Below are positions 9,777 to 40,452 of a DNA stretch of 40,522 nt, in pieces. The notes under the pieces are model-generated. The model did not search any database. It saw nothing but the letters and a program-made list of their open reading frames with translations, and had not been told where the DNA came from. How positions within the stretch are numbered: the first letter of the stretch is position 1; each line of letters starts with the position of its first letter. The translations under genes were made by a program, and so were the position numbers. The stretch is from Bacteroidales bacterium (GTDB lineage Bacteria; Bacteroidota; Bacteroidia; Bacteroidales; UBA7960), in assembly GCA_007132585.1 (NCBI GenBank), contig SLOJ01000220.1, forward strand, positions 1-40,522. Reading direction: 5' to 3'.

Positions 9777-10961
9777 TCAGATAAATTCCAGAGTTACTTC
9801 TTTAAGAAACTTTTCTTCGAGTAAAGAAGCTATTTTTTTTGCCACACTACGTCGAATTTCCAGTTCAACCGGCAGATTAGGGTCCTGATGGGCAACGTTT
9901 ATAGCTGTACCAATGCATAGGTATATTTCATCACTTTCAAGCAGCAGTTTAATAATGCTATCGGCAGGTCCCTTGCCCAGCTCCGTTCGATCATTATATT
10001 TTTCAAGTATTCCGGATACTTTGCTTAATGTAAGAATTCCTTCGGTAACAAGTTCAACTCCTTCCATATGAGAAATAGGGGGAAGATCGTGGTCATCAAA
10101 CTCAAGCGTATCCTCGATGGGAAGGTTTAGTTTTTCTGAAATAATATCGGCAGTAGTACCTCCGCAAATAATCTTTTTGCCTTTAAAGTCTTTAACTTTG
10201 TTACCCAGATACTCATCTTTTTCTTTATCAAATGGAGGCCCTGAGCAAAGAAGCAATTTTCTGGGCTCACGAAAGTACACCACAACAGTGCTTATGTCAT
10301 CTTTTGATTGATATTCATCATTAGTGTGGGCGCGGTTAACAATTACCGATGCAAGTTTTGTTGCCGAAATATCCGGATGAGATGTGATTTGAGATAATAC
10401 CATATCGCGTGTATTCTCCCATCCGAAACCAAGCAGGTATTTGCCTTTTCCCAGGCCGCTCTGAGTTATTCCATCTGTAAGCATTATTATCCGGTCCTCC
10501 TTTAATGCCTTGAATGAGCATGCTTGTATTTCATTACTCCTTTTATCCTGGCTGTCAATTTTTATGGTATGCCAGTCAGGCTTAAGTTCTTCTTCATTAC
10601 GCACAATAATGCATTGAGGATTATCATAATTGATTATGGTTGTTTGACCATTATCTTCAATATCAATAATAGTAAATGTGGCATAGCTTATTTTTCTTTC
10701 ACTGCAAACCGGAAGGGTATTCATAATGATTTCAGCAATTTTATGCACATCTTTATGTTCGGCAGTAAAATTTATTGCCATGGTGGCGGTAAGTGTGGCA
10801 AGCAAATTAGCTTTTACACCATGGCCCATCCCATCCGACAATACCACTACTGTTCTGTTCTCTTCCTTAATCTTTCGTGTAAGAAAAACATCTCCGCAAA
10901 TACGCTCACCGATATGGTTTTTCTGCAATACACCAACTTCTATGAAAAAGGAATTATCCAT
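9777..10961 (-). CDS. SpoIIE/PP2C-family serine phosphatase with an unusual C-terminal extension
   Basis: VVVLSDGMGHGVKANLLA and RIIMLTDGITQSGLGKGKYLLGFGW PPM phosphatase motifs; about 160 aa C-terminal region starting LLLCSGPPFDKEK with KKIICGGTTADI. Confidence 0.88.
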   Translation of the reverse strand: MDNSFFIEVGVLQKNHIGERICGDVFLTRKIKEENRTVVVLSDGMGHGVKANLLATLTATMAINFTAEHKDVHKIAEIIMNTLPVCSERKISYATFTIIDIEDNGQTTIINYDNPQCIIVRNEEELKPDWHTIKIDSQDKRSNEIQACSFKALKEDRIIMLTDGITQSGLGKGKYLLGFGWENTRDMVLSQITSHPDISATKLASVIVNRAHTNDEYQSKDDISTVVVYFREPRKLLLCSGPPFDKEKDEYLGNKVKDFKGKKIICGGTTADIISEKLNLPIEDTLEFDDHDLPPISHMEGVELVTEGILTLSKVSGILEKYNDRTELGKGPADSIIKLLLESDEIYLCIGTAINVAHQDPNLPVELEIRRSVAKKIASLLEEKFLKEVTLEFI

Positions 10962-11020
10962 GAAACAAAATTTGTTTAGATCTTTATTCTGAGATTGACT
11001 TTTTATGGTTTACAAAGAGA

Positions 11021-12877
11021 TTAGTCATTTTTCTTAACCTTTTTGTAGGTTTCTATGATAGAGTTGAGCATTTTTTCGGTACTTGATGCACCCTCACCCA
11101 GAGAAAAAGCTATCTGTTGTACCATCTTCAGGTTTTCGTCAATTACCTCGGTTACCCGGTTAATAATCTCCTCTTGTCTTACTTCGGCCACATACATATC
11201 GCGGAAAACAGCTCCCGCAATTTTATTGGGCTTTAGCGAGAAAACGCTTATGTTCAGTAACCCTTCATTAAAGTTTATATCTCTTCCGAGAATATTTTCA
11301 TCCTTCTGAAGCACGTAATTGAAAAGGTTGTAAATATTATAGGGTAGTAGTGTTTTTAAATCCGCTCCAATGAGTCCGGGTATTACTTCATTTATCATTT
11401 CGGCATCTTCACCTAAAGTATTAATAAATGAACTGTTTGATTCAATCACTTTAAGATTCTCATCAACAATAACCACAGCCGATGGAAGGTTATGCAACAG
11501 TGAAGAAATGGTTTCTGACTGGGTTTTTATTTTTTGATTATCTGTTTTAAGAAGTTTTTCATTTTCTTCCAGTTCCTTCCGGTTTTTTCTTAGCTTTTCA
11601 TTGTTGGCTTTTAGCGTTTTAATGAAATCCTGTTTGTTTTTAAGTGAATAGGTCAGGCACGTATCGGGTTTAGCCAGGCCTTGACTAACAGAAACGGCAA
11701 AATCGCGGCAGCTTCTGAACCCACAGGCGTTGCAAGATGATTTTTCATCAACTGATTTATCAACAGACTTAAGTATTTCTTCAATTTTTTCATCTGAAGG
11801 AATTTCAAGTCGTTGATCATCTGAGGTGAATGTCCGTGAAAGATCAAGATCTGAGAAGTAACTCATATCTTTTTCCCATTTTTTCTTATCAAAATTTTTC
11901 AACCTTTTTTTGGCATAGTCGATCACAAGTGTTTTCCTCAAAAACTTTCGGTTATCGGGTGTGGTTCCCGGGCCCATAAGACAGCCTTTATTGTAAAACA
12001 AATTGAAGTGTTTTTTCAATACTTCGGGTCCCTGACTGAATTCATCGATGGCATCCATTATATTAAATTTTCCATCGGTAGTAAGCACTGGTGATTCCAT
12101 CATATTTTCCGATATACCAGCAGCAGTTAAAATACCCTTACTCAGGGGGTAAAGTGATCCAAGATAACCTATGGGCTCATCAAAATCAGAATATTCAACC
12201 GTTGATTCCTTTATGTTTTTCTCATGAAACATTTGCCGCAATTCATGGAAAGTAAGCACTGCATCCACTTTTCTATTTCCTTTATGTCTGTTTGCTTCAT
12301 CTTTTGCCGAAACACATGGACCGATATAAACTACTCCAATATCAAGGCCAAATTTCTTTCTTACTACCATGGCAGTGGCCGTCATAGGTGTTACAATCGG
12401 ACTTAGATTGGTTGCCATTTCAGGATAAAATTTCTCTACATAAGACACAATTGACGGGCAATTTGCACTGATGTAATACTTTCCTTTAAAATTCGTAAAC
12501 AATTTATGGTATTCTTTTGCCACCAGATCTACACCAAATGAAACTTCATTCACGTAATTAAAACCCAGGGTTCGTATCATGTCTACGAATCTTATGTAAT
12601 CGGTAATATCAGGAAATTCACCACTGATGCTTGGATCAACAATTGCAGCTATCTTTTTTTCTGATTCAAGAAGTTTGAACGTGTCAGCGATTGAACTGGC
12701 GTATGATACGGCATTTACTGGGCAAACATTTAAACAGCTTCCGCATCCTATGCATCTGTCATGGTTAATCTCAGGGTTTTCATTATGTTTCGATACTGTA
12801 ATGGCCTGTACAGGACAAGCCCTGATACATGCATGGGATTGGTTACATTTTTCAAGATCAATATTTATCAGTTGCAT
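11021..12877 (-). CDS. [FeFe]-hydrogenase-like putative sensory protein: 2x[4Fe-4S] - H-cluster-like domain - CxxCG Fe-S domain - PAS
   Basis: CIGCGSCLNVCP; divergent L1 ISANCPSIVSY, L2 IGPCVSAKDEA, L3 YNKGCLMGPG; CNACGFRSCRDFAVSVSQGLAKPDTC; C-terminal PAS-like LPSAVVIVDENLKVIESNSSF. Confidence 0.9.
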   Translation of the reverse strand: MQLINIDLEKCNQSHACIRACPVQAITVSKHNENPEINHDRCIGCGSCLNVCPVNAVSYASSIADTFKLLESEKKIAAIVDPSISGEFPDITDYIRFVDMIRTLGFNYVNEVSFGVDLVAKEYHKLFTNFKGKYYISANCPSIVSYVEKFYPEMATNLSPIVTPMTATAMVVRKKFGLDIGVVYIGPCVSAKDEANRHKGNRKVDAVLTFHELRQMFHEKNIKESTVEYSDFDEPIGYLGSLYPLSKGILTAAGISENMMESPVLTTDGKFNIMDAIDEFSQGPEVLKKHFNLFYNKGCLMGPGTTPDNRKFLRKTLVIDYAKKRLKNFDKKKWEKDMSYFSDLDLSRTFTSDDQRLEIPSDEKIEEILKSVDKSVDEKSSCNACGFRSCRDFAVSVSQGLAKPDTCLTYSLKNKQDFIKTLKANNEKLRKNRKELEENEKLLKTDNQKIKTQSETISSLLHNLPSAVVIVDENLKVIESNSSFINTLGEDAEMINEVIPGLIGADLKTLLPYNIYNLFNYVLQKDENILGRDINFNEGLLNISVFSLKPNKIAGAVFRDMYVAEVRQEEIINRVTEVIDENLKMVQQIAFSLGEGASSTEKMLNSIIETYKKVKKND

Positions 12878-12911
12878 GTTTTTTACTTTACCTGGTTTAA
12901 GCTGAAGTAAT

Positions 12912-13184
12912 TTATGATGATGAAGAATTTAAAAGTTTCTCTGCCAGCAAATCGGTAAGATTTTCATCATTTACATTGATAATTACTTCTTCATTGATTT
13001 TCATAACAGGTCCTTTATCGCATTTCGACATGCAATGTGCGCCTTTGAGAGTTACCTCGTCTTCCAGTTTTTGTTCTTTCAAAAAATCCTGGATCATGCG
13101 CACAAGATTTCTGTTGCCCCTCGAGAAACAACTACTTCCCATGCATATGACTATTGTGTGAGGTTTTTGGGTCATGATATCCAT
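12912..13184 (-). CDS. Small thioredoxin-like [2Fe-2S] ferredoxin
   Basis: 90 aa; CMGSSC ... CMSKC (CxxxxC...CxxxC) ligand spacing, thioredoxin-like ferredoxin. Confidence 0.85.
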   Translation of the reverse strand: MDIMTQKPHTIVICMGSSCFSRGNRNLVRMIQDFLKEQKLEDEVTLKGAHCMSKCDKGPVMKINEEVIINVNDENLTDLLAEKLLNSSSS

Positions 13185-13545: not shown

Positions 13546-14028
13546 ATGGACACTAAATTAAGTTCCATTTTTGAAAATTATCCCAATAAACAAAGGGATG
13601 ATCTCATACCTCTTTTGCACAGCATTCAGGATCAGTTTGGCTATTTATCGGAAGAGTTTATCATTGAAGTAGGCAATTATCTTAATATTTCGGTAAATAA
13701 AATTTATGGTGTTGCTACCTTTTATGATAATTTTCGTTTTGGCCCCAAAGGTAAGTTTCATATAAGACTTTGTCACGGTACTGCCTGTCATGTTGCTGGT
13801 TCTTCAAATATTCTTTCAGAACTGGAAAAACTTCTCCGAATAAGCAATGGAGAAACAGACAAAAACGGTTTGTTTAGCCTTGAAGTTGTTTCTTGTATAG
13901 GCGCCTGTGGACTGGCACCACTGATTGAGATCAACGAAGAATATTTCTCACAATTAACAACCGAATCCTTAAAAGACATTCTGAACCATTTCAGGGAAAA
14001 CCATAATAGTATTTATGAAGATCAATGA
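13546..14028 (+). CDS. hydC: NADH-dependent [FeFe]-hydrogenase NuoE-like subunit (HydC/HndA type)
   Basis: CHGTACHVAGS and CIGACGLAPLIEIN [2Fe-2S] thioredoxin-like motifs; followed by NuoF-like and HydA-like genes. Confidence 0.92.
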   Translation: MDTKLSSIFENYPNKQRDDLIPLLHSIQDQFGYLSEEFIIEVGNYLNISVNKIYGVATFYDNFRFGPKGKFHIRLCHGTACHVAGSSNILSELEKLLRISNGETDKNGLFSLEVVSCIGACGLAPLIEINEEYFSQLTTESLKDILNHFRENHNSIYEDQ

Positions 14029-15964
14029 TCGAAATGCGGTAAAAGAATTCCTCGTAAAAAAGGTTTTAAGAAATCCTGATCGTGATAAGGATACTGATAT
14101 CAGTAAACAACTCTCTCAGATAGGTCGCGACAGGATAACAAAACCACTCATTTATGTGGGTACATCTACCTGTGCTATTGCAGCAGGTGCTCAGAAAACA
14201 CATGATGCAATTGCAAAATACCTTACTGATTCGCATCATGATGTTGATCTTGTAAAAGGAGGTTGTGTGGGTTTTTGTAAAGCAGAACCATTGGTTGATG
14301 TCCAGTTGCCTGGTAAAGCACGCATTTCTTTCGGAAATATCAAAGCAGATATGGTTCCTGAGCTGCTGGATGAGATACTGAATAATCATGTGCCAACTGA
14401 TATGGTGCTTGGGCAATACCGAAGTGCTGTTCATCAGCCATGGGATAACGTATATTTCCTTGATGAGCTTGATTTTAACAAGCATCAGAAAAAAATACTG
14501 ATGGCTAATTGTGGCATCATTGATCCGGTTTCAGTTTCAGAATACATTGCAAGGGGGGGCTATCAGGCATTTGCAGATACCATAACCCGATATACGCCTT
14601 CGCAGGTATGTGATCTGGTTGAAGAAAGCATGCTTGCGGGTAGAGGAGGAGGTGCTTATATTGCAGGTAAAAAGTGGAAAATATCGCTCAATACGGTCAG
14701 CGATCAAAAGTATTTTGTTTGCAATGCAGTTGAAAGCGACCCCGGTAGTTACATGAATCGGGTAATAATGGAAAGTGATCCGCACCAGCTTATTGAAGCT
14801 ATCCTTATAGCATCATATGCTATTGGAGCTTCCAAAGCTTTTATTTTTACCCGTCGCGAGTTTCCCCTTGCCATTGAACGGTTAAATCAAGCTCTTAAGG
14901 AAGCCGATGAATATGGTGTTCTGGGACATAATATTTTTGATTCGGGTGTAAATATTGACATTGTAGTAAAGGAGGGAGCGCGAGCCTTTGTTTGTGGTGA
15001 AGAAACAGCACTTAATAACAGTATCGAAGGAAAACGTGCAATGCCGGTTTCCAAACCACCATTTCCGGCCATAAAAGGTTTATGGAATAAACCTACCATA
15101 GTAAATAACCTTGAAACGATTATCAATGTGCCTATGATCATGAAAAATGGTCCTGATTGGTTTAAAGGCATTGGCAATGAGAAAAGCAAGGGAACAAAAT
15201 TGTTTACATTAAGTGGTAAGGTAAAAAACTATGGCACTATCGAAGTGGAGATGGGAATTAGTTTCAGAGATATAGTATACAAAATTGGTGGTGGTATAAA
15301 AGATAAGCAGGATTTTAAAGCTATTATACTGGGAATTAACAGTGGTAGTTATGTAACAGAAAAAACACTGGATACCTTAGTTGACTTTGATGCACTGAAA
15401 CAAATCGGATCTGCCCTTGGAAGCGGTGCATGTGTTGTTGTTGACAAGAACTCCTGTATGCTGGATCTTGCCAAGTTTTTTACACGGTTTTTTAAAAATG
15501 AAAGTTGTGGAAAGTGTATTCCATGTCGCGAGGGAACCGCACGTATGCTTGAAATAGTTGAAACAGCTACCCGTAAACCTGAAAAAGAAAATTCTTTTCA
15601 AACCCTTGAACGCTTTAAAGGAATTATGCAGTTAAAGGGTATGGCTGACGTTATGAAGGATACCAGCCTGTGTTCGCTCGGAAAATCTGCTCCAAATGCT
15701 ATACTGAATACCCTTGCCAATTTTAAGTCGGAATTTGATGCACATGTTTTTGAAAGAAAATGTCCGGCAGGTGTTTGCCGCGATTTAAAAACCTACACGA
15801 TAGATGTTGATATGTGCACAGGATGCACTGCATGTTTTAAAAAGTGTCCGGTAGATGCAATTATAGGCACGCCAAGGCAACCACATTTTATTGTTCAGGA
15901 TAAATGCATTGCCTGCAATGCATGTTATGAGGTATGTAAGTTTAATGCTGTATTAGTGGAATAA
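14015..15964 (+). CDS. hydB: NADH-dependent [FeFe]-hydrogenase NuoF-like flavoprotein subunit (HydB/HndC type)
   Basis: N-terminal [2Fe-2S] domain, GRGGGAYIAGKKW, AFVCGEETAL, ESCGKCIPCREGT, C-terminal MCTGCTACFKKCP/KCIACNACYEVCK 2x[4Fe-4S]. Confidence 0.93.
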   Translation: MKINDRNAVKEFLVKKVLRNPDRDKDTDISKQLSQIGRDRITKPLIYVGTSTCAIAAGAQKTHDAIAKYLTDSHHDVDLVKGGCVGFCKAEPLVDVQLPGKARISFGNIKADMVPELLDEILNNHVPTDMVLGQYRSAVHQPWDNVYFLDELDFNKHQKKILMANCGIIDPVSVSEYIARGGYQAFADTITRYTPSQVCDLVEESMLAGRGGGAYIAGKKWKISLNTVSDQKYFVCNAVESDPGSYMNRVIMESDPHQLIEAILIASYAIGASKAFIFTRREFPLAIERLNQALKEADEYGVLGHNIFDSGVNIDIVVKEGARAFVCGEETALNNSIEGKRAMPVSKPPFPAIKGLWNKPTIVNNLETIINVPMIMKNGPDWFKGIGNEKSKGTKLFTLSGKVKNYGTIEVEMGISFRDIVYKIGGGIKDKQDFKAIILGINSGSYVTEKTLDTLVDFDALKQIGSALGSGACVVVDKNSCMLDLAKFFTRFFKNESCGKCIPCREGTARMLEIVETATRKPEKENSFQTLERFKGIMQLKGMADVMKDTSLCSLGKSAPNAILNTLANFKSEFDAHVFERKCPAGVCRDLKTYTIDVDMCTGCTACFKKCPVDAIIGTPRQPHFIVQDKCIACNACYEVCKFNAVLVE

Positions 15965-15977
15965 TTTTAATCCGTAT

Positions 15978-17699
15978 ATGAGTTTTAACATTCAAGTAAA
16001 TAACAAACCTGTTGAGGTACACGAAGGTGAAATACTATTGAATGCCTTGCGCAGAAATGGTATTAAAATTCCTACTTTGTGCTATATGCATGGTTTTACG
16101 CCATCCGGTGCCTGCAGACTATGCGTCGTGGAGATAGATGGGAAAAGAGATCTTGTAACGTCCTGCGCTTATCCCGTTGAACCGGAAATGGTTGTAAAAA
16201 CCAATTCTGCAAGGGTAATAAAAGCCAGAAAGTCACTGGTAGAAATGTTGCTTTCCAATCATCCCGATGATTGCTTGTATTGCGAGCGCAACGGTAATTG
16301 CGAATTGCAATGGCTTGCCGAAGAAATGAATATTAAAGAGAGAAAATATTTCAGCAGCAAGCGTTCTGATAAACGTGATCATTCCAGCCCGAGTGTTTAT
16401 CGCGATCCTGCAAAGTGTATTCTTTGCAGCAGATGTGTAAGGGTTTGTGAAGAAGTTCAACTGGTTACAGCTATAGAGTTTATTTCCAGGGCTGATAAAA
16501 CTTCTGTAAATTCAGCTTTCAGCAAAGGACTCAATATTTCAAGTTGTATCAATTGCGGACAATGTATAATGGTTTGCCCTACCGGGGCACTTGTTGATAT
16601 TTCTCATATTGAGAAGGTGCAATCTGCTCTGGCAAGTGACAAAAAATACCCTGTAGCTTTTTTGTCACCCGCTTTTGTGGCATCCGTGTCCGATCATTTC
16701 AATTTAAAACCCTCTGATAAACCTGCAGGATTAATTATTGCAGCATTAAAAAATATGGGTTTCAGAAAAGTTTATGATCTGGGTTGGGCAGTGGATATGA
16801 ATATTCACCTTGAAGCTTCGCTATTGCTGGAAAGGAGTAAGAAAAAAGATACTGTTACTCCATTGTTTTCTTCCTGTTGTCCTGCCTGGATTAAATACGC
16901 TGAAGAATTTGTTCCGGAAATGATCTCCGATATCTCAACGGTTAAATCGCCTCAACAGTTGATGGGTTATATAGTTAAGAATCACGAAAAAGCTGAGGCA
17001 GAAAAGAAAAAACAGCAGCTATATACAGTTTCCCTGATGGCTTGTGTTGCCAATAAATTTGAAGGCTCAAGGGAGGGAAATACACGTAAGGGTGAATCGG
17101 AAGTTGATGCTACTTTAACCATCAGGGAGTTTCTGAAAATGCTGCGTAGTTATGGCATAAACTTACTTCGCTTTGATCCGGTTATCGCTGATAATCCTTT
17201 TGATCACTCATCTGCAGCCGGCTATCAGGTATCTTATTCAGGGGGTAAAGCTGAAGCCGTAGCCATGCATTTAAATCATCTGATAAACGGAGAGAAAAAA
17301 AACGGGCCTAAATTCACCCCACCTAAAAATCCCGGTAGTAAAAAAGAAGTTAAACTTTCAATTGGAAAACAGGAGTTTGGTTTTGCATGGGTAAGCGGAA
17401 TAGGAGAAGCACAAAAATATTTTGATCAGCTTGTAACTGAAAAAAGAAAAGACATTCATTACGTAGAGGTAATGGCTTGTCCGGGCGGTTGCGCTGGAGG
17501 AGGAGGACAACCCGTTTATTATTTCCAGGATAAACACAAAGCACGCAAAAAAACAGGTCAGGATCTTGAAAAAAGTCTAAAATCCCGAAAACCATCCCAA
17601 AACATACATATGTTGGAGTATTTGAATGTTCGTTTGGCTCGCAAAGAAGAAAAAGATGTATTACAAACCCGCTTCAAACAAAGAGATGTGATAAAATAA
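15978..17699 (+). CDS. hydA: [FeFe]-hydrogenase catalytic-type subunit (HydA/HndD type), with divergent active-site motifs
   Basis: N-terminal [2Fe-2S], HPDDCLYCERNGNCELQ, two [4Fe-4S] motifs, L1 SSCCPAW, L2 MACVANKFE, L3 MACPGGCAGGGGQP. Confidence 0.93.
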   Translation: MSFNIQVNNKPVEVHEGEILLNALRRNGIKIPTLCYMHGFTPSGACRLCVVEIDGKRDLVTSCAYPVEPEMVVKTNSARVIKARKSLVEMLLSNHPDDCLYCERNGNCELQWLAEEMNIKERKYFSSKRSDKRDHSSPSVYRDPAKCILCSRCVRVCEEVQLVTAIEFISRADKTSVNSAFSKGLNISSCINCGQCIMVCPTGALVDISHIEKVQSALASDKKYPVAFLSPAFVASVSDHFNLKPSDKPAGLIIAALKNMGFRKVYDLGWAVDMNIHLEASLLLERSKKKDTVTPLFSSCCPAWIKYAEEFVPEMISDISTVKSPQQLMGYIVKNHEKAEAEKKKQQLYTVSLMACVANKFEGSREGNTRKGESEVDATLTIREFLKMLRSYGINLLRFDPVIADNPFDHSSAAGYQVSYSGGKAEAVAMHLNHLINGEKKNGPKFTPPKNPGSKKEVKLSIGKQEFGFAWVSGIGEAQKYFDQLVTEKRKDIHYVEVMACPGGCAGGGGQPVYYFQDKHKARKKTGQDLEKSLKSRKPSQNIHMLEYLNVRLARKEEKDVLQTRFKQRDVIK

Positions 17700-17748: not shown

Positions 17749-19785
17749 ATGGATCTTCAACAAAAAAATCAATTTATTTATACGGTTAAAGACCGTTGTA
17801 AGGTTTGCTATACATGTGTAAGAGAATGTCCTGCCAAAGCCATTCGAATCGTTAACGGGCAGGCTGAAATAATTGCAACAAGGTGTATTGCTTGTGGTAA
17901 TTGTGTTAAGGTTTGCAACAGAGATGCCAAAATGTTTTCCTTTGCAATTGACAGGGTTAAAAAGCTTATAAAAAGCGAAGATAAGGTGGCTGCAATTATT
18001 GCTCCCAGCGTGGCAGGTGAGTTTATTGATATTTCAGATTACCAAACCCTTGTGGGGATGATAAGAATGCTTGGATTCGACCATGTTAATGAAGTTGCTT
18101 TTGGTGCCGAGCTGGTTGCAGATAAATATAAAGAACTGCTCAGGAAAGATCAGAAACAAACCTTTATTTCAACAAGTTGTCCGGCAATAGTATCTTATGT
18201 TGAAAAGCATCATCCACAGATAGTTAAATCACTTGCTCCTATTGTATCTCCAATGATTGCTACTGCCAGGGTACTGCATGATATACATGGCAATGATTTA
18301 AAGATTGTGTTTATTGGTCCGTGCATAGCAAAAAAAAATGAAGCAGCCCTCGGGCAATTTAAAGAAATGGTGCACGAAGTGATTTCTTTTACCGAGCTAA
18401 GAAGAATGTTTGATGAGAAAAACATAAACCCCGAACATCCTGATATTGTACCATCAGAATTTGATCAGCCCATAGCAGGTAAAGGTTCGGTTTTTCCAAT
18501 AAGCGGGGGTATGTTGCAAACCGTTGACCTGGAAGAAGATTTTCTCAATGGAGAAATTGTTGTTGCAGAAGGCAGGCAGGATATTATTGAAGTACTGAAA
18601 GAATTTGAAGAGGGGTATCTTGAAGCCAAATTATTCGATTTGCTTTGTTGCAACGGTTGTATGAATGGTCCGGGAATGAGTAGTCGTCAGAAGTTTTTTC
18701 TTAAAAGAAAAAACATCAGCAATTTTGCAAAAAGACAATTTGACCGGCTTGATCAGGCTGAATGGGAGAAAAATAAAAAGAAATACTCTAATATAAAGCT
18801 TGATAGATATTTTATAGCCGATGACCAACGATATCCTTCAAACTTTTCAGAAGAAGAGATAAATAAGGTTAAAGAAAAACTGGGTATTAAAGGGCAGGAT
18901 GATGAACTTAACTGCACTGCTTGCGGATATGATACTTGCCATGAACACGCGGTAGCTATTTTGAAAGGAATTGCTGAAACAGAAATGTGCCTGCCTTATA
19001 CTATTGATAAGCTACATAAATACATTACCGATCTAGATGTTTCCAATAAAAAACTGGCATCTACCCAAGATGCTCTCAAGCAATCTGAAAAACTGGCATC
19101 AATGGGCCAGTTGGCTGCCGGTATTGCCCATGAGGTCAATAATCCCCTGGGGGTGGTAATCATGTACGCTCATCTTTTACTTGATGAAATAGAGCCCGAT
19201 TCACCTCATTACAGAGACCTAAAGCTTATTGTTGATCAGGCTGACCGGTGCAAGAAAATTGTGGGCGGATTACTTAACTTTGCAAGAAAAAGCAAGGTAA
19301 ATATTACTGAGGTAAAAATCAGATCGCTCATTAAAAATAGTTTGAAGGCTGTAATGATGCCTTCAAACGTTGATTTAAACATAGAACTGGATACCCCCCA
19401 GGAATTTATTGCCTGCGATCATGATCAAATGGTTCAGGTATTTTCAAACCTTGCAAAAAATGCAGTGGATGCTATGCCCGATGGTGGCGAATTGCTTGTA
19501 AAAGTTGAAGATGATCCCAATATCACCGGAGGCTTGGTATTTACAGTCAAAGATACAGGCACCGGTATTTCTCCTGAAAACCTGGAGAAGATGTTTGAAC
19601 CCTTTTTCACCACTAAAGAAGATGGAAAAGGAACCGGTTTAGGTTTGCCAATCATGTATGGTATTGTAAAAATGCATAAGGGAAATATCAAGGTTGATTC
19701 AAACACTGATCCGGAGAAAGGACCCTGCGGAACCAGCTTTTATGTTAGCCTTCCCGGAGTACCGGAAAAAATTAATGCACATTGA
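17749..19785 (+). CDS. [FeFe]-hydrogenase-like sensor histidine kinase: 2x[4Fe-4S] - H-cluster-like domain - CxxCG Fe-S domain - HisKA/HATPase
   Basis: CKVCYTCVRECP, CIACGNCVKVCN; L1 STSCPAI, L2 IGPCIAKKNEA, L3 CCNGCMNGPG; CTACGYDTCHEHAVAILKGIAETEMC; H-box GIAHEVNNPLGV; GKGTGLGLPI. Confidence 0.94.
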   Translation: MDLQQKNQFIYTVKDRCKVCYTCVRECPAKAIRIVNGQAEIIATRCIACGNCVKVCNRDAKMFSFAIDRVKKLIKSEDKVAAIIAPSVAGEFIDISDYQTLVGMIRMLGFDHVNEVAFGAELVADKYKELLRKDQKQTFISTSCPAIVSYVEKHHPQIVKSLAPIVSPMIATARVLHDIHGNDLKIVFIGPCIAKKNEAALGQFKEMVHEVISFTELRRMFDEKNINPEHPDIVPSEFDQPIAGKGSVFPISGGMLQTVDLEEDFLNGEIVVAEGRQDIIEVLKEFEEGYLEAKLFDLLCCNGCMNGPGMSSRQKFFLKRKNISNFAKRQFDRLDQAEWEKNKKKYSNIKLDRYFIADDQRYPSNFSEEEINKVKEKLGIKGQDDELNCTACGYDTCHEHAVAILKGIAETEMCLPYTIDKLHKYITDLDVSNKKLASTQDALKQSEKLASMGQLAAGIAHEVNNPLGVVIMYAHLLLDEIEPDSPHYRDLKLIVDQADRCKKIVGGLLNFARKSKVNITEVKIRSLIKNSLKAVMMPSNVDLNIELDTPQEFIACDHDQMVQVFSNLAKNAVDAMPDGGELLVKVEDDPNITGGLVFTVKDTGTGISPENLEKMFEPFFTTKEDGKGTGLGLPIMYGIVKMHKGNIKVDSNTDPEKGPCGTSFYVSLPGVPEKINAH

Positions 19786-19807: not shown

Positions 19808-20206
19808 ATGCTTAAAATTGAGAAAAAGAAGATTTTACTGGTTGATGATGATCCTGATTATCTCTTTCAGCTTACCATAGCACTGGAAGATATGGGTTTT
19901 GAAGTAATTGCAGCACAAACTCAGCAGGAAGCTGAAAATATTGTTGACAAAATGAAACCTGATCTGGCCATTCTTGATTTAATGATGGAAAATCAGGATA
20001 CTGGATTTATCCTTTGCCATCTGATAAAAAATAAATATCCTGATGTGCCCATCATCATCGCCTCGGCTGTTACAGCTGAAACAGGATTGTTGTTTGATGT
20101 TGAATCGGAAGAAGATCGTCAGTGGATCAAAGCAGATCTTTTTCTTGATAAAGGCATAAGAAATGACCAGCTTCAAAAGGAAATCAATAAATTGCTCAAA
20201 ATATAA
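19808..20206 (+). CDS. Stand-alone response regulator receiver protein
   Basis: LLVDDDPDY acidic pair, LAILDLMM phosphoacceptor region, LFLDKGI conserved lysine; no output domain in 132 aa. Confidence 0.88.
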   Translation: MLKIEKKKILLVDDDPDYLFQLTIALEDMGFEVIAAQTQQEAENIVDKMKPDLAILDLMMENQDTGFILCHLIKNKYPDVPIIIASAVTAETGLLFDVESEEDRQWIKADLFLDKGIRNDQLQKEINKLLKI

Positions 20207-20209
20207 GCA

Positions 20210-21331
20210 ATGGGAAAGCTAAATCTGCTTGTGGTTGATGATGAACCAGGAATCAGAAGTGGTATAAAACGTATTCTGGAAAGTTTCTCGGTAAGCTATC
20301 CTTTCATGGATGAAGACTTCGAATTTGATGTGCTGGAAGCCGAAACCGGAGAGGAAGCCATTGAGTTACTTGATAATTACTTGTTTGATATTGTGCTGCT
20401 TGATAACAAACTACCCGGGATTCAAGGGGTTGAAGTACTTGAGTATATTAAAAGTCAAAGTATTGATGCCATAGTGGTAATGATTACTTCATATGCATCG
20501 CTTGATCTGGCGGTAAAAGCAACCAAAAGCGGGGCTTATGATTTTGTGCCAAAACCGTTTACACCCAAAGAATTGAGAAGTTGTCTTGAGAATATTGCCA
20601 AGCAATTGTTTCTTAGGCGAATGACTCAAAAACTGCAGGTAGAAGGTAAACAAATAAGATTTCAGTTTCTATCAGTCCTTTCGCATGAATTAAAATCACC
20701 TATCAATGCCATTGAAGGGTATCTTAATCTCATGGAAACAAAAAAGAAGGGCGAAAAGATTGATGATTATGCCGAAATGATTCAGCGTTCTTTGGCAAGG
20801 GTGCAGGATATGAGAGATTTGATAATGGACCTGCTTGATTTTACGAAAATCGAATCAGGTAAAAAACAGCGTAACATAAAACCTGTTTATTTGTCTGAAA
20901 TAGCTCGTCAGGCTATTGACTTGATTCAACCGCTTTGTATCCAGAAAGACATTGATATACATTTGAATTGTAATGAAAAAATAACACTTAAAGCAGATCG
21001 TCAGGAACTCGATATAATTCTCAATAACCTGCTTTCAAACGCAGTAAAATACAATAAACAGAATGGGCGTATCGACCTTACGCTAAAAAAGGAGAAAGAT
21101 GAGGTAGTACTTAATGTAAGTGATACAGGTATTGGGATGGAAAAGGAAGATATAGACAAGCTTTTTGAAGATTTTGTGCGCATAAAAAGTGAACAAACAA
21201 AAAATATAAGCGGTACAGGATTAGGTTTATCCCTGGTGAAAAAAATCGCCGATCTCTACAATGCAAAAATTCAGGTAGAAAGTGAACCGGGAAGTGGAAG
21301 CACATTTACAATCAGGTTTCCGGGAAATTAA
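20210..21331 (+). CDS. REC-HisKA-HATPase hybrid response regulator/histidine kinase
   Basis: LVVDDEPGIRSG ... DIVLLDNKLPGIQG ... VPKPFTPKEL receiver; LSVLSHELKSPINAIEGY H-box; DTGIGMEKEDIDKLFEDFVR, GTGLGLSLV. Confidence 0.93.
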   Translation: MGKLNLLVVDDEPGIRSGIKRILESFSVSYPFMDEDFEFDVLEAETGEEAIELLDNYLFDIVLLDNKLPGIQGVEVLEYIKSQSIDAIVVMITSYASLDLAVKATKSGAYDFVPKPFTPKELRSCLENIAKQLFLRRMTQKLQVEGKQIRFQFLSVLSHELKSPINAIEGYLNLMETKKKGEKIDDYAEMIQRSLARVQDMRDLIMDLLDFTKIESGKKQRNIKPVYLSEIARQAIDLIQPLCIQKDIDIHLNCNEKITLKADRQELDIILNNLLSNAVKYNKQNGRIDLTLKKEKDEVVLNVSDTGIGMEKEDIDKLFEDFVRIKSEQTKNISGTGLGLSLVKKIADLYNAKIQVESEPGSGSTFTIRFPGN

Positions 21332-21353
21332 TTATAAATATTATTTATACCAA

Positions 21354-21992
21354 ATGGACCCACAAAAAAGTAAAGATCTTCCAGGAAAGACCATTGAACG
21401 TCTTAGCCAATACAGGAGAATTCTTTTTAACAGTATAAACGAGGGTAAAGTAAATGTATATTCACATGAGCTTGCCCGCATGATGAATCTTACTCCCGTG
21501 CAGGTACGTCGTGATCTTATGTTGATCGGGTATTCGGGTAGCCAGAGCAAAGGCTATGTGATAAAAGATCTCATCAGCCTTATCGGTAAGATCATTGACA
21601 GTGATGAACCGCAGAAAGTGGCCATTGTTGGTATGGGTAACCTGGGGCGGGCAATAACAAGTTATTTCTCCGGTAAAAGAGAACGTTTATCAATTGTTGC
21701 AGCTTTTGATAACGATATGCAAAAAGCCAATCGCATTATAGCAGGTGTTCCGTGTCATCATGTAAACAAACTAAATGAAATACTTCCGGCTGAAGGTATA
21801 AAAATTGCAATACTTACATTAGCGCCGGAAGCAACCAATGAAGTGGCTAAAATGCTTTTTGATGCAGGAATAAAGGGAATTCTTAATTATACATCAGTAC
21901 CCCTTACAGTTCCCGAAGGAGTATTTCTGGAGGAATATGATATTGTTACTTCTCTTGAAAAGCTGGCGTTCTTGGTTAAACAGGATATGTAA
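21354..21992 (+). CDS. rex: Redox-sensing transcriptional repressor Rex
   Basis: Winged-helix VYSHELARMMNLTPVQVRRDLMLIGYSG; Rossmann VAIVGMGNLGRAI; NYTSVPLTVPEGVFLEEYDIVTSLEKLAF. Start moved to MDPQKSKD because the longer ORF overlaps the upstream gene. Confidence 0.93.
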   Translation: MDPQKSKDLPGKTIERLSQYRRILFNSINEGKVNVYSHELARMMNLTPVQVRRDLMLIGYSGSQSKGYVIKDLISLIGKIIDSDEPQKVAIVGMGNLGRAITSYFSGKRERLSIVAAFDNDMQKANRIIAGVPCHHVNKLNEILPAEGIKIAILTLAPEATNEVAKMLFDAGIKGILNYTSVPLTVPEGVFLEEYDIVTSLEKLAFLVKQDM

Positions 21993-23920: not shown

Positions 23921-25348
23921 ATGATATACCGCCCTGAAAATTACAGTATTAAGGATCAAAGGATGAAGCCATTCATTGATCCTGATGAAATCTGGAATTT
24001 TATCAATACAGCAAAAGGAGATAAAAGCCGGATCAGGGAGATTATAAAAGCTTCTCTTAATAAAAAACGATTATCATTAGAGGAAACAGCCATACTGCTT
24101 AATGCTGATGATCCTGAATTAATTGAAGAGATCAAAGAGGGAGCGCGCACACTTAAGGAGAGGGTTTATGGCGAAAGGATTGTACTTTTTGCCCCGCTTT
24201 ATGTGGGCGACCTTTGCACAAACAATTGCCAGTATTGTGGTTTCAGAGCCGAAAATAAAGGCATGAAGCGTATTACTTTAAGTCGTGAAGAACTCATTGG
24301 TGAAACCACTGCACTTATTGATCAGGGCCATAAACGATTAATTCTTGTTTACGGTGAACATCCGAAATATTCTGCCGATTTTATTGCGGAAACCGTAAAG
24401 ATTGTTTATAGCGTAAAACATGATAATGGTGAAATACGAAGAGTAAATATAAATGCCGCTCCGTTTGACATAAATGGTTTTCGCACCATAAAAGATTCAG
24501 GTATAGGCACTTTCCAGATCTTCCAGGAAACTTACCACGAACCCACTTACCAGAAAGTACACCTTGGTGGAATTAAAAGAAATTACGACTGGCGCCTTAC
24601 ATCGCTTGATCGTGCCCAGGAAGCTGGTATTGATGATGTAGGTATAGGTGCACTTTTCGGACTCTATGACTGGCGGTTTGAGGTACTTGGGCTCGTTAGG
24701 CATGTAAACCACTTTGAAGCTGTTTATAAAGTGGGGCCGCATACTATTAGTTTTCCAAGGATTCAAAATGCTCTCTCACTTAATATTGATAAAGATCATC
24801 TTGTAAAGGATGATGAATTTGTAAGACTGGTATCTATTCTGCGGCTGGCAGTGCCTTATACGGGTATGATACTCACTGCACGAGAGCCACACCACATTCG
24901 CGATCAGATATTAAGGTTCGGGGTATCGCAAATTGATGGAGGAACAAACCTTGAACTGGGTGGCTATAGCAAAGAAAAAAAAGACACCCAGGATCTTACC
25001 ATGGAGCAGTTTCAAATAAACGACAACCGCTCTTTGAATGAGATTATGGATGAGCTGATCAAAACAGGATATATACCATCATTTTGCACTGCATGTTACA
25101 GGCTTGGACGCACAGGTGAGCATTTCATGGAATTTTCTGTTCCGGGTTTTATCAAAAGGTTTTGTTCACCCAATGCCTTGCTTACCCTGGCAGAGTATCT
25201 TGAAGACTATGCGCCAACAGATACCAAAGAAAATGGCTATAAACTAATTAACCAGAAAATATCTCAACTGGCTCAGCACCAAAATGTAGATAAGCTTAAA
25301 GAAAAAGTTCAGTTGGTTAAAAATGGTAAACGTGATTTGTATTTCTGA
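23921..25348 (+). CDS. hydG: [FeFe]-hydrogenase H-cluster radical SAM maturase HydG
   Basis: CTNNCQYCGFR radical SAM CxxxCxxC; C-terminal FCTACYRLGRTGEHFM...RFCSPNALLTLAEYL. Confidence 0.96.
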   Translation: MIYRPENYSIKDQRMKPFIDPDEIWNFINTAKGDKSRIREIIKASLNKKRLSLEETAILLNADDPELIEEIKEGARTLKERVYGERIVLFAPLYVGDLCTNNCQYCGFRAENKGMKRITLSREELIGETTALIDQGHKRLILVYGEHPKYSADFIAETVKIVYSVKHDNGEIRRVNINAAPFDINGFRTIKDSGIGTFQIFQETYHEPTYQKVHLGGIKRNYDWRLTSLDRAQEAGIDDVGIGALFGLYDWRFEVLGLVRHVNHFEAVYKVGPHTISFPRIQNALSLNIDKDHLVKDDEFVRLVSILRLAVPYTGMILTAREPHHIRDQILRFGVSQIDGGTNLELGGYSKEKKDTQDLTMEQFQINDNRSLNEIMDELIKTGYIPSFCTACYRLGRTGEHFMEFSVPGFIKRFCSPNALLTLAEYLEDYAPTDTKENGYKLINQKISQLAQHQNVDKLKEKVQLVKNGKRDLYF

Positions 25349-27162: not shown

Positions 27163-28392
27163 ATGAAAAAGATACTTTTTATTTCCGTGCTGCTAATTTT
27201 TTCCATCAATACCTTAAAAGCAGGAGAGGGCCCGGTTAATATTAAACCATATGGTTACATTAGTTATGAAATAATATATGATACATACCGCTCGCTCGAT
27301 ACCCGCGATGGAGAGCTTTATCTGTTCCCGAAAAAACCTGAATATGATATCAATGGCAACGATATAAACAAAAGGAGCAAGTTTAATATGTTGTCAGTTC
27401 ACTCACGTTTTGGAGTGGATGTCAAAGGTCCGGAAATTTTGGGTGCCAAAACCTCCGGTAAAATTGAAACAGACTTTTTTGGTACCCGGCAGGACCTTGT
27501 CAGGATGCTAAGACTTCGACAAGCCTTTATTCGTATGAATTGGGAAAACTCTGAACTGATATTGGGAAATACTTTTCATCCGGCTTTCGTACTGGATTGT
27601 TTTCCGCAAACTATTTCATTTGCAGCGGCTGTACCTTTTCATCCTTTAAACCGATCACCTCAATTACGTATCACACAAAATATTTCAGATAAGATTACCG
27701 GTTCGTTATCTTTTCTTGTACATGGATATCATAAAAGTGCCGGCCCCGAAGACCAGCAAAGGAATTCAGGTTTACCGGAATCTGTTATGCAATTGCGTTT
27801 TGAACCCTCATCAGGGTTTTTGGCAGGAATAACAGCAGGATATAAATTTTTATCTCCCCGAGATATTACTAACGGAGGTGAAGCGACAAAAAAAACCATC
27901 GGATCGTACATTCTTCAGGCATTTTCAAGAATTACAACTTCAAATGTTGATATAAAACTTGAAGGAATTTTTGGAGAAAATCTCACCCATTTTATTATGA
28001 TTGGTGGTTACGGGGCAAGAGGTACATCAGAAACCATTGACTGGAACAGTGATTATGATTATTCAAACTTACGAACACTATCAGTTTGGGCAGATATAGA
28101 AACAGATTTTGCCGGTTTTGACTGGGGAATATTTACCGGTTACACTGAAAATCTGGGTTCAAAACACCTGTATACTCCAATTGCAGGATTATCGCGTTAC
28201 GATGATCTTCATTTTCTTTTCAGAATATCTCCAAGAGTTCTTTATAAAGAAGGAAATATGAGCTTTGGTGCTGAGTATTCTTTCTATAATGCAGTATATG
28301 CCGAAGATTTTGACGCATACGGCAAACCTTCGGTATCTATGGATCCAGCGATCAACAATCACATATTATTAATGGCCCGTTACATTTTCTGA
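27163..28392 (+). CDS. Putative outer-membrane beta-barrel (porin-like) protein
   Basis: Signal peptide MKKILFISVLLIFSINTLKAGEG; alternating amphipathic strands; terminal aromatic residue ...ILLMARYIF. Confidence 0.6.
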   Translation: MKKILFISVLLIFSINTLKAGEGPVNIKPYGYISYEIIYDTYRSLDTRDGELYLFPKKPEYDINGNDINKRSKFNMLSVHSRFGVDVKGPEILGAKTSGKIETDFFGTRQDLVRMLRLRQAFIRMNWENSELILGNTFHPAFVLDCFPQTISFAAAVPFHPLNRSPQLRITQNISDKITGSLSFLVHGYHKSAGPEDQQRNSGLPESVMQLRFEPSSGFLAGITAGYKFLSPRDITNGGEATKKTIGSYILQAFSRITTSNVDIKLEGIFGENLTHFIMIGGYGARGTSETIDWNSDYDYSNLRTLSVWADIETDFAGFDWGIFTGYTENLGSKHLYTPIAGLSRYDDLHFLFRISPRVLYKEGNMSFGAEYSFYNAVYAEDFDAYGKPSVSMDPAINNHILLMARYIF

Positions 28393-36604: not shown

Positions 36605-37555
36605 TCAGTCACTATTTTTGGTTTCTTCTTCTCTGACCCGTGTAAGATTTACAAACTCAAAAGCACTTTCAAGTGATTTTTCATTTTCCTGGCCCCCGGG
36701 AGCGTGTTTGGCAAATTTCACAAGGTCTGCCAATTGTAAACATTCACTGAGTATTTCTTCAGATTCTTTTGATATTTGTTCGCTCCTGAATGATTCCATT
36801 ACTTCCGAACTTGTCATTTCCATGGCATTTATATTGAAACGTTTTTCAATATAATGCCGGAGAATATCGGTTAATTCACTGTGGTATTCCTTAATTTTAC
36901 CCTGTTGCCATAGTTTACGTGCTTTTAACTTTTCAAGGCTGCTTATTGCAGCGATATGAGCGGGTATATCGGGTTTTTCCCAGATAGTTGCAGGTTTTTC
37001 TACCGTTTTTCTTCGACGCAAATAAAGAAGAAGTGCTGTAATTACCAGTGCCAGAGCAATACTTCCCAAAGCCCAGGGTAATACCTCTCTGAAAGTCACT
37101 GGTGCTGAGATGATGGTTTTTATGTCTTTCAACTCTGTATATTCATCAATGAGAAATTCATCTACTTCAAGCAACAAAGGTTCACTTTCTGCTTCAAGGG
37201 TATCGGTAGCGGATAGGAATCGGAATATGATAGGCTCAATGGGATGAAATCCCTCTTCCCATGAAGTAACTGTTAAAGAGCGTCTAAAGTGTTTCTGGCT
37301 TTGCTCAGCAGCTTCAAGTGAATCCGTTTGGCCATGGTTGAGAATTTCAATAACAGGACTTATCTGTTCATTGAAAACGGGCATTTCCAGTTTCAAACTA
37401 TCCGGATATTTTATATCAAAAACAAGCTGCACCGGTTCACCCATGAAGATTTTCTGAGGCTCAATGCTGCTTGTTATCTGTTGTGCTTTTACTGATGGAT
37501 GCAATAAAAACAAAACAAGTAATAAAAGAATATATCTGAATTCAGGAATTTTCAT
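36605..37555 (-). CDS. Bat-operon protein with signal peptide, single TM and DUF4381-like tail
   Basis: Signal peptide, extracellular domain, LGSIALALVITALLLYLRRRK TM; located between the DUF58 and BatA genes. Confidence 0.65.
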   Translation of the reverse strand: MKIPEFRYILLLLVLFLLHPSVKAQQITSSIEPQKIFMGEPVQLVFDIKYPDSLKLEMPVFNEQISPVIEILNHGQTDSLEAAEQSQKHFRRSLTVTSWEEGFHPIEPIIFRFLSATDTLEAESEPLLLEVDEFLIDEYTELKDIKTIISAPVTFREVLPWALGSIALALVITALLLYLRRRKTVEKPATIWEKPDIPAHIAAISSLEKLKARKLWQQGKIKEYHSELTDILRHYIEKRFNINAMEMTSSEVMESFRSEQISKESEEILSECLQLADLVKFAKHAPGGQENEKSLESAFEFVNLTRVREEETKNSD

Positions 37556-39837: not shown

Positions 39838-40452
39838 ATGATGAAAAAAATTTTACCCCATCTTGCTTTTGCTTTAACACTGTTGATTTTTGCAAACTGC
39901 GGCCAGCGGCAACCCACATCTGAAGAAACAACACTTCCCGAAACCGAAAATCTGGAATCCGAAGTGCATCAGGCATTTTTTGATAATCTGAGAACACTGT
40001 GCGGACAATCCTTTAAAGGAGAGCAGGTATACAGAAGCCATCATGGCGAAAGCTGGGCCGGCCGCGAAATGATCATGCATGTTAGTGTTTGCGAGAACAA
40101 TCAAATACACATTCCTTTTCATGTGGATGATGATCACTCACGAACCTGGATGTTTTTGAATGAAGAAGGTAAGCTAAGGTTCAGGCATCAACATTTACAT
40201 GATGATGGTACCCATGAAGAAGGATCAATGTATGGAGGATATGCCAATGACCAGGGTAATGCATTTGTGCAATATTTTCCTGCTGATGAATATACAGCAC
40301 AGGTTATTGAAGATGGTGGTGGAAATATATGGACTGTAAGTTTATTAAATCCAAATCCTCCGTATGATGTTATGACTGTTTTTTCTTACAGACTTGATCG
40401 TGATGGTGAAAAACGTTTTGAAATTGTTTTTGACATTACAAACCCCATCTGA
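39838..40452 (+). CDS. Hypothetical lipoprotein
   Basis: MMKKILPHLAFALTLLIFANCGQRQ signal with lipobox-like FANC; His/Asp-rich body (HVDDDHSRTW, RHQHLHDDGTHEEG). Confidence 0.7.
   Translation: MMKKILPHLAFALTLLIFANCGQRQPTSEETTLPETENLESEVHQAFFDNLRTLCGQSFKGEQVYRSHHGESWAGREMIMHVSVCENNQIHIPFHVDDDHSRTWMFLNEEGKLRFRHQHLHDDGTHEEGSMYGGYANDQGNAFVQYFPADEYTAQVIEDGGGNIWTVSLLNPNPPYDVMTVFSYRLDRDGEKRFEIVFDITNPI

Follow-up and report, generated by a model that had tools for sequence, protein, structure and literature searches.

Altered active-site residues in the HydA subunit of a predicted Bfu-type HydABC complex are a lineage trait of one Bacteroidales family

The catalytic subunit HydA encoded in the window (here, the whole analysed stretch of 40,522 nucleotides) carries active-site substitutions that are inherited lineage traits of a clade of 29 HydAs from one Bacteroidales family. 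With confidence only slightly better than even, we favour the reading of this protein as part of a working bifurcating [FeFe]-hydrogenase, which would be slower and/or re-biased and would possess a rerouted proton path and remodelled H-cluster surroundings. Residue K358 and the path E282-S319-E279-C299 are usually treated as fixed in active [FeFe]-hydrogenases; a clade in which Asn at position 358 always stands alongside Lys at position 423, facing the azadithiolate (ADT), thus offers a natural experiment on the demands that the H-cluster makes of its protein, and the 358/423 pairing is a specific candidate for epistasis. An active enzyme would widen the design rules for hydrogenases and catalysts; an inactive one would mean that this HydABC complex has lost its hydrogenase while retaining the bifurcating core.

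Catalytic motifs of HydA

The gene hydA (bfuA; 15978–17699, + strand) encodes a protein of 573 aa with an H-domain, and all of the motifs listed below are read on the same strand. When aligned with solved structures and 134 further HydAs, the protein bears out the original prediction for the catalytic helix, loop L2 and the cluster ligands. The helix HLEASLLLER (16806–16835) keeps E279 and R286 and has Leu in place of E282, and S319 is kept as well; L2, MACVANKFE (17037–17063), has Ala instead of P354 and Asn instead of K358 (codon AAT, 17052–17054) and retains C355. L1, SSCCPAW (16869–16889), holds the proton-relay cysteine C299 and the cubane ligand C300, and L3, MACPGGCAGGGGQP (17472–17513), keeps M497 and the cubane ligands C499 and C503, so that the four cubane cysteines and C299, the ligand set of group A, are intact; M353 is also present. 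The motif ISTVKSPQQ is located at 16932–16958. In the motif SGGKAEA (17238–17258), residue K424 (codon 17247–17249) occupies the position of V423 in CpI and of E252 in TamHydS.

Three features set the HydA of the window apart from ordinary group A members. Its TIGR02512 score (334 bits) lies below the curated cut-off of 405.95; four relatives from the clade score 337–363, non-soda divergent HydAs 416 and 458, and full-length canonical HydAs 485–520. The P2 motif, MPCxAKK, given for A3 BfuA in PMC11406978, is replaced by MACVANK. The classical proton path C299-E279-S319-E282(-R286) is interrupted by the E282-to-Leu exchange, with the other residues kept. In the HydA1 structures solved for T. 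kivui, T. maritima and A. woodii, E279, E282, K358 and V423 are all in place, and E282, P354 and K358 are altered in the window relative to every characterised relative compared; none of these solved or characterised relatives with normal bifurcating activity shares the substitutions, whose non-canonical character had been correctly recognised.

The C-terminal tail (17589–17699) is divergent and His-poor in comparison with the canonical SHEN..HxLLHTxY. The original prediction placed the features of interest at 16806–17526 and regarded KPSQN as a substitute for SHEN. The catalytic motifs do lie within this span, but KPSQN (17589–17603) is past its end, and the divergence of the tail stands while a simple swap does not, as the whole His-rich tail has disappeared across the clade. 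Structure prediction, which had been proposed as a check, yielded a confident H-domain (pLDDT ~90) with HydABC and CpI as the best fold matches and a poor model of the N-terminal Fe-S region.

Residue variation and distribution of the clade

The residue census comprised 29 clade members, 27 other divergent HydAs and 79 canonical HydAs. The canonical proteins are uniform at E279, E282, R286, C299, S319, M353, P354, K358, F417, V423 and M497; E279, C299, K358, F417 and V423 were among the criteria by which this set was defined, and the presence of K358 in 79/79 is partly a matter of definition, while E282, R286, S319, M353, P354, A230, P231 and M497 are independent of the choice. In the clade, C299, C300, C355 and K359 are invariant (29/29), as are M497, C499 and C503 in the 28 complete rows (the 29th is incomplete), and E279 is Glu in 27 members and Asp in two. 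The neighbouring positions vary: E282 is represented by 11 residue types among the 29 proteins, S319 is Ala in 11/29, R286, F417 and the mostly kept M353 are variable, and position 358 is occupied by Lys in 14, Asn in 14 and Glu in one. All 11 same-genus homologs found, which come from independent genomes, have Asn there. The tail contains on average 1.4 His residues in the clade versus 4.5 in canonical HydAs, and the motif [ST]HxN occurs in 0/26 and 73/78 of them, respectively. The least telling of the changes in the window is that of E282, since this position drifts freely in the clade and the E282A exchange is mild in CpI, where about 50% of the activity is retained (E282Q retains about 8%; PMC6226526).

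A different pattern is seen in the other divergent Bacteroidales HydAs, where E279 is gone in 26/27, E282 is mostly retained and C299 is replaced in 11 proteins. These proteins (L059, L069, L089, L094, L142, L147, L149, L154, L159, L031 and L032) have Asp, Asn, His or Ser at the C299 position and mostly Gln, Leu, Val, Ile or Met at the E279 position; L032, L089 and L094 have Glu at position 423, like group D. Among canonical HydAs, 32/79 contain the motif TSCSPGW, with Ser aligned with C300 and Cys at C299; L003, the paralog from the window's own genome, has this motif as well.

A tree of 69 HydAs places the window's protein in a clade of 27 members, each having Lys in place of V423 (SH-aLRT 100), and this clade is nested within a wider divergent Bacteroidales group of 43 (SH-aLRT 99). 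The same 27-member clade is recovered when only the N-terminal Fe-S part is used (100). Across 149 genomes drawn evenly from the order, clade-profile scores exceed 1000 bits in the window's family and fall to 763 outside it; the clade thus appears to be confined to this family. The original prediction missed this family-wide character of the trait, as well as the invariant K424 and the fixed changes in HydB.

Evolutionary rate and selection

Divided by that of the N-terminal part, the mean divergence of the H-domain gives 2.11 for clade members, 1.56 for the remaining divergent HydAs and 1.00 for the canonical set. Except for the HydA tail, the H-domain is the fastest of the operon coding parts compared, being approximately level with the N-terminal domain of HydB. 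In close pairs from the clade, dN of the H-domain is 2–5 times that of the N-part (about 1 in canonical pairs), and dN/dS of the H-domain is 0.04–0.10, which indicates a functional domain under strong purifying selection.

These values bear on two further explanations. One is an artefact of sequencing, assembly or translation, or a decaying pseudogene. The window does belong to a fragmented metagenome-assembled genome (contig C17 of a 2.38 Mb, 257-contig, 84% complete assembly), but the same residues recur in the 11 same-genus genomes and in named independent assemblies, the frames are intact and purifying selection is evident, which makes this explanation negligible. The other, which we consider rather improbable, is near-neutral change under relaxed demand, where the complex would be a redundant second hydrogenase of ordinary activity and its pocket would simply tolerate surface and second-shell substitutions. 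A canonical HydA is present as well in most genomes, the window's own among them, and the behaviour of E282, both in the clade and in CpI, agrees with such tolerance. However, K424, A425 and S230 are fixed in the clade instead of drifting, as are the HydB changes described below; the loss of K358 depends on the charge at position 423, dN/dS stays low, and in genome G016 (91% complete) a search with E ≤ 1e-5 found the divergent HydA and a HydS but no canonical HydA.

Lysine at the position of CpI V423

K424 replaces V423, the valine of TGGVMEA in CpI, in 29/29 clade members and in 0/106 other HydAs. In TamHydS, the corresponding E252 is located 3.4 Å from the ADT ligand and is required for activity, while group A enzymes have valine there (PMC10407848); the proximity of K424 to ADT is assigned by equivalence to TamHydS, with distances taken from the cited papers. 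Matching of positions by motif places S421 of the window at the equivalent of TamHydS S249; the window's E497 is equivalent to TamHydS E289 and is kept in 28/28 clade members, and the counterpart of the outermost relay residue D265, also matched by motif, is not conserved in the clade.

Where position 423 is charged, 16/32 HydAs have a non-basic residue at position 358; among the others, the count is 0/103. On the tree, these cases amount to about five independent events, so that the Fisher p-value, obtained by treating related sequences as independent, overstates the evidence. Judging by the distribution on the tree, the pattern fits an order in which K424 arose first and K358 was later lost more than once.

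One objection to activity comes from mutagenesis of the residue beside the distal cyanide, presumably Lys228 of CrHydA1 (the counterpart of K358 in CpI); the original experiments are reportedly those of Knoerzer et al. (2012). Its exchange for Asn gave an inactive enzyme with no [2Fe] signals (PMC11376134, a review that writes arginine). The main rival explanation is a loss of H2 chemistry: HydA would keep the [4Fe-4S] cubane without [2Fe], K424 would fill the emptied [2Fe] pocket, and HydABC would transfer electrons between NADH and ferredoxin or have a regulatory function, possibly with a different third substrate. The H-domain, evolving about twice as fast as the N-domain, is also compatible with such a loss, which we regard as unlikely, though as the most serious of the rivals. 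Half of the K424 clade still has K358, and C299 (29/29) and E279 (27/29) are retained amid drifting neighbours. We know of no role for C299 and E279 without the ADT amine. In a dead hydrogenase, C299 would be expected to drift too, and the fixation of both residues is the main reason why a working hydrogenase is preferred.

HydB, HydC and the bifurcating core

Upstream of hydA and on the same strand are hydC (bfuC; 13546–14028), the conserved first gene of the operon, and hydB (bfuB; 14015–15964). HydC matches the NuoE family and contains the [2Fe-2S] motif CHGTAC..CIGAC; this BfuC-type subunit is encoded adjacent to hydB. HydB (649 aa) comprises an N-terminal [2Fe-2S] domain, FMN/NAD and SLBB domains and a C-terminal 2x[4Fe-4S] domain, and the B1 [4Fe-4S] cluster ligands are also present. 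The His residue of the B2 cluster, present in bifurcating BfuB and absent in non-bifurcating homologs (PMC9304861), is found in AHVFERKCPAGVC, with the spacing H-x5-C-x4-C. By architecture and cluster ligands, the complex is assigned to BfuABC/HydABC (Bfu-type), and the HydABC assignment of the original prediction is upheld, all the bifurcating cluster ligands being in place; the shifted catalytic bias or weak H2 activity that it also suggested is a hypothesis.

In 13/13 HydBs of the clade, CNADEGDPGAFMDR is changed to CNAVESDPGSYMNR, GAGAF to GARAF and GGPSGG to a GINSGS-like motif; the fixed changes in these flavin/NAD motifs are D239V, G241S, D248N, G323R, G342A and G441I. We read them as a likely match, near the flavin/NAD site, to the remodelling of HydA. 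The co-fixed pocket changes, D239V and G323R among them, suit a loss of H2 chemistry too, and about half of the known Bfu complexes are not hydrogenases (PMC9304861); at the same time, the conserved operon contains no extra catalytic subunit.

Gene neighbourhood and maturation

Downstream of hydA, on the + strand, are located the genes of a HydS-type protein with an H-cluster domain and a histidine kinase (17749–19785; Fe_hyd_lg_C, HisKA and HATPase_c, with TSCP, GPCIAKKNE and CCNGC kept), a response regulator and a response-regulator/kinase hybrid in conserved order (19808–21331) and a Rex-family redox repressor (21282–21992). These are followed by ribF, a gene for a metallo-beta-lactamase-like protein and the H-cluster maturase gene hydG (23921–25348, +; TIGR03955 score 510 bits, cut-off 312), which is syntenic across the family, at a distance of about 6 kb downstream from the divergent hydABC. 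Elsewhere in the window, the ORFs at 27163–28392 (+, 409 aa), 36605–37555 (−, 316 aa) and 39838–40452 (+, 204 aa) had no Pfam match.

Opposite to hydCBA lies a divergent unit (9777–13184, − strand) encoding a syntenic SpoIIE-type phosphatase (9777–10961), a HydS-like sensor with one cubane Cys missing (11021–12877) and a Trx-like [2Fe-2S] protein (12912–13184). It stands beside 19/22 divergent HydA loci and 0/45 canonical ones, a contrast for which the Fisher test likewise treats related sequences as independent. This association could suggest that HydA is a slow sensor-like transducer, reporting the redox state to the neighbouring HydS-kinase and SpoIIE modules instead of carrying metabolic flux, and the loss of the classical proton path resembles that of group C/D sensors (PMC10407848, PMC10055695). 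The complete bifurcating HydBC core is kept, however, and M497 and mostly M353 are retained, unlike in group C/D sensors, so that this explanation seems very unlikely.

The missing Cys of the upstream HydS suggests that its H2 sensing may be decaying in the clade, and a partner so altered can be counted in favour of a loss of H2 chemistry. The lost ligand corresponds to the C499 position; in the window and in L036–L041, L047 and L048, the motif reads LFYNKGC or FYHxGC versus LLCCEGC elsewhere, and L2 of this HydS (GPCVSAKDE) has Ala at the K358 position.

Genome G016, where the divergent HydA stands without a canonical one, encodes HydE, HydF and HydG. The loss of the cofactor through loss of the maturases was rejected on this ground, and the retention of the three proteins favours a matured H-cluster in the divergent HydA and tells against lost H2 chemistry; HydS proteins are other possible clients of HydE, HydF and HydG. 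The window's own 84% complete genome contains HydG and a partial HydE; HydF was not found in it, a gap treated as incompleteness of the assembly and not as absence.

Proposed mechanism

The preferred reading, i.e., a working hydrogenase, can be formulated as follows. This Bacteroidales clade, known mainly from soda-lake samples, would have a soluble electron-bifurcating HydABC (group A3/BfuABC) in which the interconversion of H2 and 2H+ at HydA is coupled to NAD(H) and ferredoxin at the HydBC subunits. HydE, HydF and HydG would assemble the H-cluster, the four cubane cysteines would hold it, and C299 and E279 would still serve the ADT amine. The outer half of the classical path (E282, the His-rich tail and, in many cases, S319 and R286) would have been given up, and K424, which would lie beside ADT and the distal iron, would supply charge and a relay for protons at the site that is Glu in group D enzymes. 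In this proposal, it is by supplying them that K424 would have made K358, which holds the distal cyanide, dispensable, and K358 would then have been repeatedly lost; the outcome would be a slower and/or differently biased enzyme. From sequence, we infer the occupancy of the H-cluster, the role of K424, everything said here about activity and a shifted pH optimum.

The preference for a working enzyme draws on the invariance of K424, the 358/423 dependence, the low dN/dS, the maturases of G016, the bifurcating ligands of HydB, the H-domain model and the activity left in CpI E282A. Weighed against it are the lab enzyme killed by Asn beside the distal cyanide, the H-domain divergence ratio, the scores below the TIGR02512 cut-off, the Cys loss in the upstream HydS, the alternative maturase clients in G016 and the non-conservation of D265. 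The narrower proposal that a lone invariant Lys at position 423 replaces both the outer proton path and Lys358, with a matching change at the flavin site of HydB, is tentative and less likely than not; it would give the H-cluster a second coordination sphere without parallel among characterised group A enzymes.

Comparison with known systems

The closest counterparts are the group A3 HydABC/BfuABC complexes of T. kivui (8a6t), T. maritima (7p5h) and A. woodii (7q4v), which are the best PDB and fold matches and have the same three-subunit architecture, including the A1–A4 clusters and H-domain of HydA and the N-terminal [2Fe-2S], FMN, B2 His and C-terminal 2x[4Fe-4S] of HydB. The window's clade differs from them at E282, P354, K358, F417 and V423, in the C-terminal tail and in the HydB flavin/NAD motif, and its H-domain evolves at twice the rate of the N-domain. 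Canonical Bacteroidales operons (L049, L053) follow the same order, hydC-hydB-hydA-HydS kinase-response regulators-hydG, but have intact catalytic residues and lack the upstream HydS/Trx/SpoIIE unit. Group D TamHydS (PMC10407848) likewise combines partial loss of the classical path with a protonatable residue at 423; unlike TamHydS, the HydA of the window keeps C299 and E279, has Lys as the relay, lacks D265 and belongs to a HydABC complex. In the accessible part of PMC11406978, BfuABC complexes of Perlabentimonas, Tenuifilum and Williamwhitmania are described with two bfuT (HydS) genes, one upstream and one downstream of bfuCBA, as here; active-site changes in HydA are not among the features described in that part.

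The nearest named relatives of the window's genome are Bacteroidales metagenome-assembled genomes, several of which carry CSSed names, as applied to sediment of Cock Soda Lake (PMC6146748), where the pore water has a pH of 9.9 (PMC6704655). The named clade members are mostly soda-lake assemblies, with sampling concentrated in one lake; proton supply at about pH 10 would be an obvious pressure on the active site, and the link is suggestive. The canonical HydA of the window's own genome (L002 and L003 of G000) is split across the ends of contigs C188 and C19; it has MPCTAKKYE and the SHEN tail and is preceded by a short HydB-like protein without the bifurcating N- and C-terminal Fe-S domains.
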